40,056 nucleotides of DNA from a virus. Position 1 is the first letter of the stretch. The number at the start of each line of letters is the position of its first letter. Under the pieces are notes generated by a model. That model was not told where the DNA came from, ran no database searches, and was given only the letters and a program-made list of their open reading frames with translations. Below are positions 27,406 to 34,684 of this stretch, piece by piece. The position numbers and the translations under genes are program-made. The stretch is taken from the IMG/VR virus record IMGVR_UViG_3300044302_000554, positions 1-40,056 of that record; one strand, 5' to 3'.

Positions 27406-27456
27406 GGTTGACATTACTTGCTAGGTATTATAACATTACTTAGTAATTTGTCAACC
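27406..27456 (+). promoter_or_regulatory. Promoter with operator-like repeats before the HTH gene
   Basis: A perfect -35 TTGACA at 27408-27413 lies within GGTTGACA, which is repeated inverted as TGTCAACC at 27449-27456. A -10 candidate TATAAC (spacer 15) or TAACAT (spacer 17) falls between. ACATTACTT occurs twice in the same direction (27411 and 27434), and ATTACTTAGTAAT at 27435-27447 is a perfect palindrome. This arrangement suggests an autoregulated promoter covered by its repressor, most simply the small HTH protein encoded just downstream. Confidence 0.65.
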
Positions 27457-29659: not shown

Positions 29660-29856
29660 GTAGTTACGACCCATTTGAAGTAGTACCTTCACAGCATCCA
29701 GACGATAAAGAGTTAGTTCAGCGGAAAGAAATTTTAGAAGCAATAGAAAAAGTCTCAAACTTTCTTGAAAAAGCTGATTACGTTAACTCTAAGTCGTTAG
29801 TTAATGCACTTGATGAAATATATCATTACGTACAGGAAGGAGATTATGGGTCGTGA
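29656..29856 (+). CDS. Small helical protein
   Basis: 66 residues, acidic, starting MSSYDPFEVVPSQHPDDKEL, helical, without recognised motifs. The ATG overlaps the stop of the 340-aa gene (ATGA), and its end overlaps the next gene by 11 bases. Part of the coupled early operon. Function unknown. Confidence 0.5.
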   Translation: MSSYDPFEVVPSQHPDDKELVQRKEILEAIEKVSNFLEKADYVNSKSLVNALDEIYHYVQEGDYGS

Positions 29857-30097
29857 CAACTTAAAATACAGGCAACGTCCTCTTACATATCACAGTATTG
29901 AGTTCAACAGGTATAAAGGCAAAGACGTAGGATTTAAACCATCACATGATGAAATAGACAAAGCTGTAGAAAGTTTTTTAGCTAAAGGTGGTTCTATTGA
30001 AAAATCAGAACTTGGTGCAAATCCTACACTTGATAACGATGAAAAACCTTTGTCCGAAGAAGAAATACAAAACATTTTAGAAGAATGGAAAATATGA
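29846..30097 (+). CDS. Small phage protein, unknown
   Basis: 83 residues from the ATG of MGRDNLKYRQRPLTYHS, preferred because GGAAGGAG precedes it. An upstream ATG within the previous gene has no ribosome site. The end (HDEIDKAVESFLAKGGSIEK) resembles a short segment found in other small phage proteins (FLxKGGxI), with no known role. A proline-poor acidic tail follows. It overlaps the next tiny gene by ATGA. Confidence 0.5.
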   Translation: MGRDNLKYRQRPLTYHSIEFNRYKGKDVGFKPSHDEIDKAVESFLAKGGSIEKSELGANPTLDNDEKPLSEEEIQNILEEWKI

Positions 30098-30368: not shown

Positions 30369-30693
30369 TGGTCTTAAAGAAAAGCTAGATGTTATTGCTA
30401 ACGCATTGGAAAAGAAACTAAGCCCATACGCAAAAGGCAATCAATACAAACTGGCAAAGCTTTTGAATAGATATAGCATGGCAGACATTGTAGCTACTGC
30501 TAAATACGTTAATAATAAATTCAAAGGCAGTAATTATTACGAGTGGTCACGCAAACCTAACGTGTTTTTGCAAGACAGGTTTGACGAGTTCCATGAAGAA
30601 ATGTTACGTAGAACACCACAGTTCTTAAAAGAAATAACCAGAACATCAAACAAAGAACATGCCGAAGATAGGAACGAACAACAAAGACTCTGA
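30352..30693 (+). CDS. Probable replication accessory protein upstream of the DnaC-like loader
   Basis: 113 residues starting MTSPSNGLKEKLDVIANALE, mostly helical. It has a stretch AKLLNRYSMADIVATAKYVN and an aromatic patch (NYYEWSRKPNVFLQDRFDEF) but no recognised family. The ATG is read within the DDIPF codons of the previous gene, with GAGG 6 bases before it. It precedes a DnaC-type helicase loader by overlap, the place usually held by a replication initiator, so that role is considered, but its size is small for it. Confidence 0.5.
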   Translation: MTSPSNGLKEKLDVIANALEKKLSPYAKGNQYKLAKLLNRYSMADIVATAKYVNNKFKGSNYYEWSRKPNVFLQDRFDEFHEEMLRRTPQFLKEITRTSNKEHAEDRNEQQRL

Positions 30694-31474
30694 TCCAATG
30701 GTCGTATTAAGGAGGATAATTGAAAAAGTTAAAAAAACACCACGCCCAAGAAAAGTTGATAGCTGGAAAGCAGGAACAAAAGAAGAAACTACGGATCGCC
30801 CTTTTGAAGAATTTACTAGAAACGGACTTAGCTATGTCAGGTTCTTTGAATTGGAGCAAAGTGAACAAGAAAAGCTTGATAAGTATAGAACCTACCTTGA
30901 AGAAGCAGGACTCTTTTCTCACAAGGATATTACCTTGGATTCTATTGGTAATTATATATTTTTAGAACAACAGAAAGCAGATCCTTCAAGGCTTTACACT
31001 AAAATTAGACAAAGTAAATCATTGGTATTGTCTGGACCTCCAGGTACAGGTAAAACTACGTTAGCATGTGCTATAATGCGTAAATGCTATGACCAAAACA
31101 AAAGTATTGTTATCAAGCGTTGGTATCATTGGTTGGTAAAAATGCGGGGTGGAGCTTATCAAGACGATAAAATCCAAGACATGGAACAGTTTCTTCGCCC
31201 TGCTGTTAAGTGTGACTATTTGCTTATTGATGAGCTTGGTACAGATGCTAAACAATCAGCTACAGCGTTTGAGCAAGAACAGTTGATGTACATTATTTCG
31301 GAAAGACATGGTAACGGAAAACCTACAATCATCACTACCAACTTGACCAGAGAAGAAATCAATAATATATATAGTGAAGCTATATATCAAAGAATGGCAG
31401 ATCAGAAAACAGGTTATTGGTTTGAATTTGATAACGAACAGAATAGAAGGAAAGTTATTGATTTTCCTAGATAG
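30659..31474 (+). CDS. DnaC-like helicase loader (AAA+ ATPase)
   Basis: 271 residues. Walker A is GPPGTGKT at 126-133, Walker B LLIDELG at 188-194, sensor 1 TTN at 226-228, with an arginine-finger candidate at Arg245 in AIYQRMAD. This is the DnaC/IstB-type loader set, with an N-terminal partner-binding region before residue 110. It would load the host replicative helicase onto phage DNA. No phage helicase or polymerase is encoded in the window, so host machinery must follow. The first ATG overlaps the 113-aa gene; a second ATG 13 codons later is possible. Confidence 0.85.
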   Translation: MPKIGTNNKDSDPMVVLRRIIEKVKKTPRPRKVDSWKAGTKEETTDRPFEEFTRNGLSYVRFFELEQSEQEKLDKYRTYLEEAGLFSHKDITLDSIGNYIFLEQQKADPSRLYTKIRQSKSLVLSGPPGTGKTTLACAIMRKCYDQNKSIVIKRWYHWLVKMRGGAYQDDKIQDMEQFLRPAVKCDYLLIDELGTDAKQSATAFEQEQLMYIISERHGNGKPTIITTNLTREEINNIYSEAIYQRMADQKTGYWFEFDNEQNRRKVIDFPR

Positions 31475-31485
31475 GAGTCCTATCT
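31469..31485 (+). terminator. Perfect 8-bp inverted repeat over the DnaC-like stop
   Basis: AGATAGGA and TCCTATCT flank one G, forming a 7-bp stem with a 3-base loop in RNA. It spans the last codons and stop of the loader gene. No U-run follows, so it is not a classical terminator. It may protect or mark the 3' end of the upstream message, or be an entry boundary for the structured RNA that follows. Confidence 0.45.
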
Positions 31486-31514
31486 CATGCTCCAAGGAAT
31501 TGATTAGCTGTCCA

Positions 31515-31661
31515 TGAAGTCTTAGTGCAAAGGTGTCGCCTCTCTCTCCTTAGATAAAAGGATGCCTAACCGATAAGGCGTTGTAAAAGTTTTACGCTAA
31601 TCGCTTTTACGACCATAGTTAGTTCATCTATGCTCATAGCCGAAAGGTCGCTAAGACTTCA
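31515..31661 (+). ncRNA. Structured RNA candidate closed by an 11-bp stem
   Basis: TGAAGTCTTAG (31515-31525) pairs perfectly with CTAAGACTTCA (31651-31661) and encloses 125 bases with no convincing gene. Inside are local stems: TCCTT/AAGGA (31547, 31558); GCCT/AGGC with an 8-base loop (31564, 31576); a 10-bp stem with one G-U, GTTGTAAAAG/CTTTTACGAC (31580, 31604); CATAG/CTATG (31614, 31628); and a 3-bp stem capped by GAAA (31639-31648). This is a multi-branched fold and lies between the loader and the 99-aa gene, on the operon strand. It matches no riboswitch or ribozyme I could recognise by motif. It may be a cis-acting leader, a processed small RNA or a replication element. Confidence 0.65.
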
Positions 31662-31689: not shown

Positions 31690-31989
31690 ATGGTAATAGA
31701 ACAAAGCAATACAAAATGGGAACCAGTAAATTCAGATGAAGCACAAAGAATGTACGTGCAAAGACTAAAAGTTGATACAGGATACATATACCATATACGA
31801 AGATTTACAATAGTTACTGATGTCGGTGGACATACTAGAGAATACGCAGAATATGAGCAGTTCATACATGGAAGCGCAGATCATACCATTGGGCAAACCG
31901 AGAATGACTCAACGAGATCGGTGGAAAAAGAGACCAGTGGTGACGAGGTATCACGAATACGCAGATCGGCTAAGAGAAAACGCCGATAA
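31690..31989 (+). CDS. 99-aa protein overlapping RusA
   Basis: 99 residues from the ATG of MVIEQSNTKWEPVNSDEAQR, chosen for AGGA about 6 bases before it; upstream starts lie in the structured RNA. Predicted beta strands (YIYHIRRFTIVTDV) are followed by an acidic then basic tail, much of which is encoded in the region overlapping the RusA frame by about 120 bases. No family recognised. The long overlap makes its C-terminus uncertain. Confidence 0.5.
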   Translation: MVIEQSNTKWEPVNSDEAQRMYVQRLKVDTGYIYHIRRFTIVTDVGGHTREYAEYEQFIHGSADHTIGQTENDSTRSVEKETSGDEVSRIRRSAKRKRR

Positions 31990-32230
31990 GCAGAACTTTT
32001 TGCTTGGACCAAAGCTTGAAATCCAATTCTGGATGCCAATGCCACAGTCATGGAGCAAAAAGAAGAGGTTAGAGCATTTACTCAAGCCTCATAAACAAAG
32101 GCCTGATTTAGATAATCTTATAAAAGCTGTTCAAGACATTCTACTGAAAGAAGATTCAGCAGTATGGTATGTCACAGCAACAAAAAGATGGTCTGAAGAA
32201 GGGAAATTAGTAATTTTTAATCTTAAGTAA
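31868..32230 (+). CDS. rusA: RusA-type Holliday junction resolvase
   Basis: 120 residues from the ATG of MEAQIIPLGKPRMTQRDRW, the usual start of the family; longer starts also exist upstream. KQRPDLDNLIKAVQDIL (77-93) holds the RusA acidic triad at Asp80, Asp82 and Asp90. The C-terminal half has the ATKRW strand. It would resolve recombination or replication intermediates before packaging, in line with the nuclease/annealase module. It overlaps the 99-aa gene and precedes SSB by nine bases. Confidence 0.85.
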   Translation: MEAQIIPLGKPRMTQRDRWKKRPVVTRYHEYADRLRENADKQNFLLGPKLEIQFWMPMPQSWSKKKRLEHLLKPHKQRPDLDNLIKAVQDILLKEDSAVWYVTATKRWSEEGKLVIFNLK

Positions 32231-32239
32231 AGGTAAAGT

Positions 32240-32620
32240 ATGTCAAGTATATACGTGGCAGTGGGTTATGTTGGTACTGATATAGAGTACGGACAAACAA
32301 ACAACGGCAATAGTTTTGCTAACTGGTCAATGGCTATACGATCTAATCCAAAGCAGGAAGAACCAGATTGGTTTGATTTTGTTGCGTACAAGTCACTTGC
32401 TGACATTGTTCACAAACACGTAAAGAAGGGCAACCTTCTTCATATAACTAGAGCTTACCCTAGAAATCGTAAGTGGACTGACAAAGAAGGCAATCCACGC
32501 AAATCCACAGAGTTTATTGTGAATGATGTTGAACTTATGCCAAACAAGAGGGCAGATAAGGACAACTCGTCACAAAAGACTGAGGATATTAAAGACGATA
32601 CTATGCCGTTTGAACTCTAG
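32240..32620 (+). CDS. ssb: Single-stranded DNA-binding protein (SSB) with PFEL end
   Basis: 126 residues. An OB fold is shown by VGYVGTDIEYGQTNNGNSFA, FANWSMAIRS, then WFDFVAYKSLADIVHKHVKK and GNLLHITRAY. A short acidic linker leads to DDTMPFEL. The tip has the MPF core of an SSB C-terminus but is capped by Glu-Leu. In E. coli SSB the free carboxylate of the last Phe is contacted by partners, so the cap could weaken or redirect binding to host proteins. A ribosome site AAAGGTAAAG precedes the ATG. Confidence 0.88.
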   Translation: MSSIYVAVGYVGTDIEYGQTNNGNSFANWSMAIRSNPKQEEPDWFDFVAYKSLADIVHKHVKKGNLLHITRAYPRNRKWTDKEGNPRKSTEFIVNDVELMPNKRADKDNSSQKTEDIKDDTMPFEL

Positions 32621-32680: not shown

Positions 32681-33301
32681 ATGGCGAATCCCCCTATTGT
32701 TATAAATAAACCAAATATCGAAACTGTATCATTCGATGTCTTTGGTACACAACCCATGATACAGCACAAATGGTCTGAAAAAGCCAAGAAACAGATGCTT
32801 GATAAGCAGATGAAGAAAGCTACAAAAGGCCGTGAACCGAAAAATCCTGAACAAGATTTTTTTGATTCATTATATCTTTGTTCAGATGGCAAACATCCTA
32901 ATGGTCCATACGGCTTTCCTGCTGTTGGTTTTAAATCCTCTGCCGTTAGAGCGGCAAAGCAGGTCGAAGGCATGACAATGACTGATGCCAAAGCATGGTT
33001 TTATGTCATTCCAGATGATGGTGATCTTGTCCGTATTTATGGACCACCTCCTGTAATTCGTGAGGACATGGTTAAAATTCAGCAAACAACGGACATTAGA
33101 TTCCGTGGTCAGTTCAATGAATGGCGTGTAACGCTCAACGTAAGATATAACATGGATCAGATTTCCTCTGAACAGTTGTTGAATCTATTTGAACTTGCTG
33201 GGTTTTCATGTGGTGTTGGCGAATGGCGTATGGAACGTGGTGGCACGTTTGGTACATATACTCTTATTGATCCTGCGACTGCATTAAAGAAGGTCGCTTA
33301 A
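32681..33301 (+). CDS. Conserved phage protein with GEWR motif
   Basis: 206 residues. Family signs: MIQHKWSEKAKKQMLDKQMK, KGREPKNPEQDF, GFPAVGFKSSAVRAA (79-92), then WRVTLNVRYN and GVGEWRMERGGTFGTYTL (178-195). I recall this as a widespread uncharacterised phage protein near recombination genes. A ribosome site (AAAGGA) lies 7 bases before the ATG. The glycine-rich GEWR tail and duplicated strand pattern recall ferredoxin-like nucleic acid-binding folds, but this is a guess. It lies in the same operon as SSB and the nuclease module. Confidence 0.7.
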   Translation: MANPPIVINKPNIETVSFDVFGTQPMIQHKWSEKAKKQMLDKQMKKATKGREPKNPEQDFFDSLYLCSDGKHPNGPYGFPAVGFKSSAVRAAKQVEGMTMTDAKAWFYVIPDDGDLVRIYGPPPVIREDMVKIQQTTDIRFRGQFNEWRVTLNVRYNMDQISSEQLLNLFELAGFSCGVGEWRMERGGTFGTYTLIDPATALKKVA

Positions 33302-33846: not shown

Positions 33847-34684
33847 GGCTTGCTGGGTTTTATTGTGCTATGGAAAGGTGTTGTATGTTGAGTTGAGGCA
33901 GGTGTGGCATTATGGGGTCGGATGGGCTACGTCTAGGTCAGGTCAGGTCAATTCAGTTGAGTTTCGGCAGGTGTGTTGAGTCGAGTCATGTTGCGATAGA
34001 TTCAGGTATGATGCATTTCATTGCGGTATGTTCAGTCGAGTTAAGGCAGGTGGGTCGAGGTTAGGTGCTATTTGTAGTGGTCAGTTCAGTTATGGCAGGC
34101 TAGGCGAATTGGGTTGAGATGAGTCTTGATGAGTTGAGATTTTTTGCGGTCAGGCAGGCAAGGAGTGGATTATTTGTTGAGATGAGTTCTGTTACGGCAG
34201 GTGAGGCGAGAAAGGTTGGATGAAATATGATATGTTTTGGCAGGTAAGGTGGGCATGTTGCGGATAATGAGTTGAGTTTGGGCAGGCAAGGTGGATTATT
34301 TTGCGGATATTGAGGAGAGGTAAGTTGTGATGGGGCAGGCAAGGTATTGTCGGTTGTCGTATGGCGATTTGAGTTGGGTCGAGTTGGGCTATGATTCGGC
34401 AGGTATGCCAAGGTGAATTGTTGTATGTTGAGGATAACGAGTTGAGTTAAGGTGAGCTTTTGCAGGTACGGAATGCTTATGCTGTGTCGAGGATAGGCAA
34501 GTTACGTTTCAATAGGGCAGGCTAGGTCTGGCAGATAATACATGTTGAGGTATGGAGTGCAGGCTAGGTGCGGTGAGTAGAATATGGTGAGTTACGGAGT
34601 GCTGGTTGATACAACTAGGTTAAGTTCTGGTGGGACGAGGCAAATCAGGATGTGTTAAGGAAAGTTGCGGTCTGGTAAGTTTCT
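33847..34684. repeat. Non-coding G-rich degenerate repeat array, single orientation
   Basis: 838 bases without a credible gene. On the plus strand G far exceeds C (34081-34140: 21 G, 6 C), and short words recur: GGCAGG or TGCAGG at 33897, 33966, 34045, 34094, 34153, 34196, 34239, 34281, 34334, 34398, 34461, 34516 and 34558 (consensus GGCAGGYNAGGYG). They are interleaved with well over a dozen T(T/C)GAG words and several TTGCGG words. Copies are 42-79 bases apart and only in this orientation. Stops crowd all plus frames. The minus strand is correspondingly C-rich and G-poor. Confidence 0.9.

Follow-up and report, generated by a model that had tools for sequence, protein, structure and literature searches.

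An intercistronic structured RNA domain with compensatory base changes in the replication operon of an uncultured marine phage

INTRODUCTION

Few structured RNAs are known from phage operons, and these come mostly from model phages. In T7-type phages, each RNase III processing site between cistrons is one long, irregular hairpin, and the put antiterminator RNAs of HK022-type phages consist of two simple stem-loops near a promoter. The gene 32 operators of T4 and RB69 have kept their structure while their sequence has diverged among related phages (PMC535899). In addition, comparative genomics has yielded candidate structured RNAs of phages, some of them marine, including the Rfam motifs c4 antisense RNA, manA, wcaG, and PhotoRC-II (PMC2864571).

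The DNA analyzed here, referred to as the window, is a virus record of 40,056 bases whose structural genes are of podovirus type. The named phage with the closest terminase is Pelagibacter phage Baldr (53%), and much closer terminases (70 to 98%) are found on other IMG/VR contigs. At positions 31515 to 31661 (+ strand), a 147-nt structured RNA domain is folded between genes of the marine phage replication operon.

RESULTS

Location and predicted fold of the element

Two segments, TGAAGTCTTAG (31515 to 31525) and CTAAGACTTCA (31651 to 31661), are 100% complementary over 11 bp and stand 125 nt apart, exactly as a preliminary description of this DNA had reported for a perfect inverted repeat, and the resulting closing helix (P1) is even lengthened to 13 bp by U31526.G31650 and G31527-C31649. 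Folding of the window RNA predicted six hairpins inside P1. These include both features that had been picked out earlier among at least four local stems, a 10-bp arm (31580-31589/31604-31613) and a hairpin capped by GAAA. The predicted pairing probabilities of P1 and P5 in context were 1.0. The gap from the DnaC stop (31474) to the start of the following gene, p99 (31690), measures 215 nt and is the sole long gap of the operon, in agreement with the earlier estimate. The parts of the element are as follows.

31515-31661, + strand: structured RNA domain, window member (fold; homologs at L020:256-405 and L013:2037-2199)
31515-31527, + strand: P1 5' strand, pairs with 31649-31661 (13 pairs, paired in 3/3 sequences, two-sided change at 8/13)
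31531-31537, + strand: P2 5' strand AGGUGUC, pairs with GAUGCCU at 31561-31567 (paired in 3/3 sequences, two-sided change at 6/7)
31561-31567, + strand: P2 3' strand GAUGCCU, partner of 31531-31537
31568-31573, + strand: conserved AACCGA (AACCGA in L020, AACCAA in L013)
31580-31613, + strand: P5 hairpin, 10 to 11 bp, with UAAUCG (31598-31603) in the loop, common to the window and L020
31614-31632, + strand: P6 hairpin CAUAG/CUAUG (fold and comparison)
31639-31648, + strand: GCC-GAAA-GGU segment (GCC-GACAAA-GGU in L020, GGC-AAC-GGU in L013)
31649-31661, + strand: P1 3' strand, partner of 31515-31527

P2 is absent from the minimum-energy fold of the window RNA, lying about 3.4 kcal/mol above a string of small hairpins; it is present in the best fold of L013 and in a tied best fold of L020. 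The inner fold as drawn is probably inexact, with the sequence comparison favoring the 7-bp helix 31531-31537/31561-31567 over two small hairpins. In addition, ACC (31569 to 31571) could pair with GGU (31646 to 31648) adjoining P1; both triplets are invariant in all three sequences, and covariation therefore neither supports nor refutes this pairing. A candidate 7-bp pseudoknot between GATTAGC (31502 to 31508) and GCTAATC (31596 to 31602) was dropped; L020 has no matching 5' strand.

Structure judged from the window sequence

The 11-bp stem on its own proves nothing, because such repeats are expected by chance: the window holds 3 at such distances, versus 4.2 per shuffled window. The folding stability of the whole gap had a z score of -2.5, with 22 of 2,000 shuffles equally stable (p ~0.01), and that of the 147-nt element, a segment chosen by its stem, had a z score of -4.5, which none of 2,000 shuffles equaled. 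At least six hairpins under a stem of at least 9 bp arose in 5 of 2,000 shuffles of the gap. When the gap was compared with 279 natural viral gaps from phage contigs, its stability was ordinary (rank 82); a closing stem of ≥9 bp around ≥5 hairpins was rare there, with only 4 cases among the 279. From the window alone, folding makes a structured RNA plausible. It is by the evolutionary evidence, as read from covariation in homologs, that the structure exceeds chance.

Homologs in two other phages

Homologs were sought by an architecture scan of the 279 natural intergenic gaps of other phages, which returned as candidates the four gaps with this rare architecture. One of these, L020:253-424, lies upstream of RusA and SSB; the M15 peptidase encoded on its contig and that of the window share 80% identity. 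The RNA in it (L020:256-405) is 150 nt long, compared with 147 nt in the window, and shares CTCTCC, TAACCGA, TAATCG, and AGCCGA..AAAGG with the window RNA in the same order. Depending on the scoring, only 2 to 8 of 20,000 natural windows of matched GC content reached the raw similarity between the two, as did at most 1 of 1,000 shuffles in five of six scorings (52 in the sixth). R1, a model built from the window sequence only, missed L020 with default filters and placed it exactly with filters off (E = 0.0027 in 7.7 kb). A two-sequence model (window plus L020) then found L013:2037-2199 (E = 4e-12 in 386 kb), in a phage whose terminase is 68% identical to that of the window. L013 was not detected in the window-only model search and is linked to the family mostly via its sister L020. 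The family thus has three members, all from one group of phages, of which L020 and L013 are close sisters.

Both of these loci were brought in by a RusA scan, and scans with DnaC, SSB, RusA, and TerL gave few neighbors with this replication module. No match to the RNA was obtained by blastn against phages and plasmids or in a scan of 754 proteobacterial genomes, and a model search of the window showed that the RNA is single copy. The exact P1 pattern had one match in IMG/VR, within a terminase gene, which was rejected as chance. Loop-motif patterns had many matches in IMG/VR and GTDB genomes, none upheld by model or blast; the GTDB matches showed one fixed spacing repeatedly in Bacteroidota and are presumably ribosomal RNA. 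An architecture scan of gaps can therefore find such RNAs where sequence search fails.

None of the Rfam 15 models matched the window RNA at gathering threshold or at an E value of ≤10; L020 and L013 gave only chance-level matches far below gathering scores, and ARAGORN found nothing. The lack of any recognized signature, noted earlier from the sequence alone, extends to a covariance-model search in which none of the three members matched a known family. A decayed-gene origin was considered and rejected; six-frame translation revealed no relatives in the phage loci compared. We consider it very probable that the family formed by the three RNAs is real, and it is likely a new RNA family, previously unlisted; its general kind is that of a structured element in a phage operon.

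Covariation and strand

In a hand alignment of the three sequences, all 39 of 39 cells of P1 were paired; both sides had changed at 8 of its 13 positions, and no pair was broken. The corresponding alignment of P2 (AGGUGUC/GAUGCCU in the window, UGGACCC/GGGUCUA in L020, and UGAGUCU/AGGCUUA in L013) had 21 of 21 cells paired and two-sided changes at 6 of 7 positions. P2 was not part of the models; the support that it gives is somewhat weaker than this count, because P2 was chosen after the folds had been seen. In the model-fitted alignments, which are biased toward the structure, two-sided changes that were still paired occurred at 16 of 45 pairs with two sequences and at 23 of 45 with three, compared to 8 in shuffles. 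As a control, the 3' partners were slid, and the covariation signal collapsed. The covariation check of the closing stem suggested in the preliminary description thus turned up compensatory changes in both L020 and L013. Stems broken without compensation in homologous phages, which had been named there as the refuting case, are the opposite of what these two phages contain. The earlier interpretation as a discrete structured RNA is partly supported.

On the + strand, G.U pairs account for 10 of the 60 cells of P1 and P2; read on the other strand, these become A-C mismatches. Therefore, the pairing occurs in the sense strand, that is, in the message RNA.

Gene context

The rightward gene set begins with an HTH gene (27473) and includes a YqaJ-type nuclease, a 340-aa protein that we take, by position alone, to be a recombinase, the DnaC-like loader, the 99-aa protein, RusA, and SSB. 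The genes around the RNA are as follows.

30659-31474, + strand: DnaC-like AAA+ helicase loader, preceding the RNA (Pfam IstB_IS21; DnaC-like phage proteins)
31690-31989, + strand: p99, 99-aa protein, following the RNA (ORF with Shine-Dalgarno AGGA; weak homologs in L131 to L133)
31820-32230, + strand: RusA Holliday-junction resolvase (Pfam PF05866, E = 4.5e-15)
32240-32620, + strand: SSB single-strand binding protein (Pfam PF00436, E = 1.1e-15)

In all three phages, the RNA is intergenic and on the + strand, with RusA and SSB downstream. The distances from the preceding stop and to the following start are 40 and 28 nt in the window, 3 and 19 nt in L020, and 5 and 19 nt in L013. The gene before the RNA is DnaC in the window and encodes a 135-aa protein in L013 and L020, and the gene after it is p99 in the window and encodes a 250-aa protein with a ParB-like motif in L020 and L013. 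This 250-aa protein (L013:2219-2974 and L020:425-1177), directly downstream of the RNA, carries the motif DGHHRVQA; neither Pfam nor a tblastn search of 50,697 phage records gave a match. Three more distant relatives (L131, L132, and L133) have the order DnaC, p99-like protein, and RusA without the gap or the RNA; SSB was identified by sequence match in L131 and L133, whereas the corresponding position in L132 holds a 124-aa ORF that gave no match. Since the RNA is present in the window, L020, and L013 and missing in these relatives, it is a gained or lost module.

A scan of the gap for sites showed nothing promoter-like or terminator-like, and the nearest strong upstream promoter on the + strand is at 27408. 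Several other features of the window were observed. Facing promoters precede the HTH gene (27408 to 27454); the minus-strand promoter is a perfect TTGACA-16-TATAAT, and the plus-strand promoter reads TTGACA-17-TAACAT. A perfect inverted repeat of 8 bp around a 1-nt center, AGATAGGA/TCCTATCT, spans the DnaC stop codon (31469 to 31485) and is followed by a micro-ORF from ATG 31487 to TAG 31507 (MLQGID, 6 codons) with its own Shine-Dalgarno-like TAGGAG. A 97-aa protein (29804 to 30097) weakly resembles the SutA RNA-polymerase-binding domain (E = 3.5e-05, a match that does not reach the curated cutoff), and a 206-aa protein (32681 to 33301; phrog_4652) is about 40% identical to Gordonia phage proteins; the 163-aa gene after it (phrog_15946) is also conserved as its neighbor. 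Finally, about 830 nt without evident genes (33850 to 34680) are strongly G/T-rich on the + strand (305 G versus 85 C); GGCAGG occurs there 11 times on the + strand and never on the minus strand, in irregular repeats around GTTGAGTTGAGGCAGGTGWGG. This possible origin, packaging, or Chi-like array was not seen in L013, L020, L397, L398, or Baldr.

The next ribosome-binding site

The predicted accessibility of the Shine-Dalgarno sequence of the next gene was unchanged in silico with or without the domain in all three phages, which argues against a translational switch on that gene. It was likewise unchanged when ribosomes were modeled at the DnaC stop or on the micro-ORF. An anti-Shine-Dalgarno switch between UCCUA after the DnaC stop and UAGGA before p99 was rejected; blocked ribosome footprints had no effect. 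Together with the lack of a terminator in the gap, the independence of the Shine-Dalgarno sequence also argues against a classic riboswitch. Of the options that had been proposed earlier, control at the ribosome-binding site of the next gene is thus not predicted, while cis control of RusA and SSB and a processed RNA both stay candidates.

DISCUSSION

The fold, its homologs, its covariation, the pairing in the sense strand, and the position in the operon are established here. As for function, our preferred but tentative reading, to which we assign a probability of about 0.4, is that of an intercistronic RNA domain that may act in cis on the part of the message encoding RusA and SSB, through protein docking or processing. 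The domain would be transcribed within the long replication and recombination message, ahead of the genes leading to RusA and SSB. The 13-bp helix would close off a branched domain with variable inner helices, in which the putatively unpaired segments AACCGA, UAAUCG, and GCCGA..AAGGU are partly kept. A protein, either from the host (an RNase or an RNA-binding protein) or encoded by the phage itself (RusA or SSB, for instance), may dock on the domain and would then cut, stabilize, or repress the distal RusA-SSB message, presumably not through masking of the next ribosome-binding site. Points against this cis reading are the differing next gene, the unchanged Shine-Dalgarno accessibility, the relatives L131 to L133 that lack the domain, and a family of three members only.

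A trans-acting small RNA that would be excised at the P1 base from the operon transcript, and would inhibit a host factor or defense system or serve as a decoy for it, is rather unlikely. The domain is self-contained (pairing probability in context of 1.0 for both P1 and P5) and is unlinked to the ribosome-binding site, its neighbor genes vary, and its occurrence is patchy; however, it always lies within the same operon, where a start codon directly follows and RusA is downstream, and no promoter or terminator of its own was seen in the gap. We regard a ligand-sensing, riboswitch-like leader of the downstream genes as improbable, since neither a terminator nor a masked ribosome-binding site was found that could form an expression platform, the downstream genes are nonmetabolic, and Rfam gave no match, even though the internal loops, which lie ahead of a start codon, are partly conserved amid variable helices. 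It is very doubtful that the branched RNA junction is a mimic recognized by the phage RusA, whereby the resolvase would control its own message or be held until replication. RusA is a nuclease whose choice of four-way junctions depends on their shape, and to our knowledge, feedback through an RNA junction mimic is not known for any resolvase; if true, this would be a new feedback type for resolvases.

An element acting at the DNA level, whether a single-strand initiation site, an origin hairpin, or a mobile element with 11-bp terminal inverted repeats, has the same low probability as the riboswitch-like leader. It would fit the lineage-specific 215-nt insertion adjacent to DnaC relative to L131 to L133, the differing insertion context in L013 and L020, and the folding of minus-strand DNA (z = -2.1), whereas the G.U pairs fit the + strand only and the folding of + strand DNA does not surpass that of shuffles (z = -1.0). 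The strand-specific G.U pairs and the weak + strand DNA folding likewise disfavor the replication signal that had been offered as an option in the preliminary description. Moreover, for a mobile, MITE-like element, the flanks GCTGTCCA and CTTCTTGA differ and thus form no target-site duplication, the element is single copy in the window, and no transposase was recognized. Finally, a selectively trivial, if conserved, spacer or chance structure with a fortuitous link to L020 and L013 is extremely improbable. The P1 repeat alone is within chance, the stability of the gap is ordinary among phage gaps, and L020 was selected from 279 gaps by its structure, but L020 was one of only four structural candidates and then showed sequence similarity at the 1e-4 level. 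Indeed, compensatory changes in two separate helices largely refute this explanation.

Among known systems, the window RNA shares with retron noncoding RNA (a1/a2 inverted repeats) a long closing repeat around several stem-loops and a similar size; unlike a retron, the RNA has no Rfam msr match, and no RT-type Pfam or PHROG match was found among the scanned window proteins. It also differs from c4, manA, wcaG, and PhotoRC-II in that its three members match no Rfam 15 model. Like the T4/RB69 gene 32 translational operator, through which SSB exerts autogenous control, it is a folded segment within the mRNA of a phage replication operon to which SSB belongs. However, the gp32 operator sits at the start of gene 32 and blocks the translation start, whereas the window domain lies about 580 nt upstream of SSB, has p99 and RusA in between, and touches no ribosome-binding site. 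Indeed, a position test for an SSB operator failed (RNA end at 31661, SSB start at 32240), with no masking predicted at the next gene. As with the RNase III hairpins of T7-type phages, helical elements stand between genes of an early polycistronic message, but here they form a branched junction with conserved unpaired segments. As with the put RNAs of HK022-type phages, a phage-borne structured RNA is found inside an early operon, but as a closed multibranched domain in midoperon. Carried by a common group of uncultured marine podovirus-like phages, this RNA could be a new control point of phage recombination and replication or a phage RNA aimed at the host.
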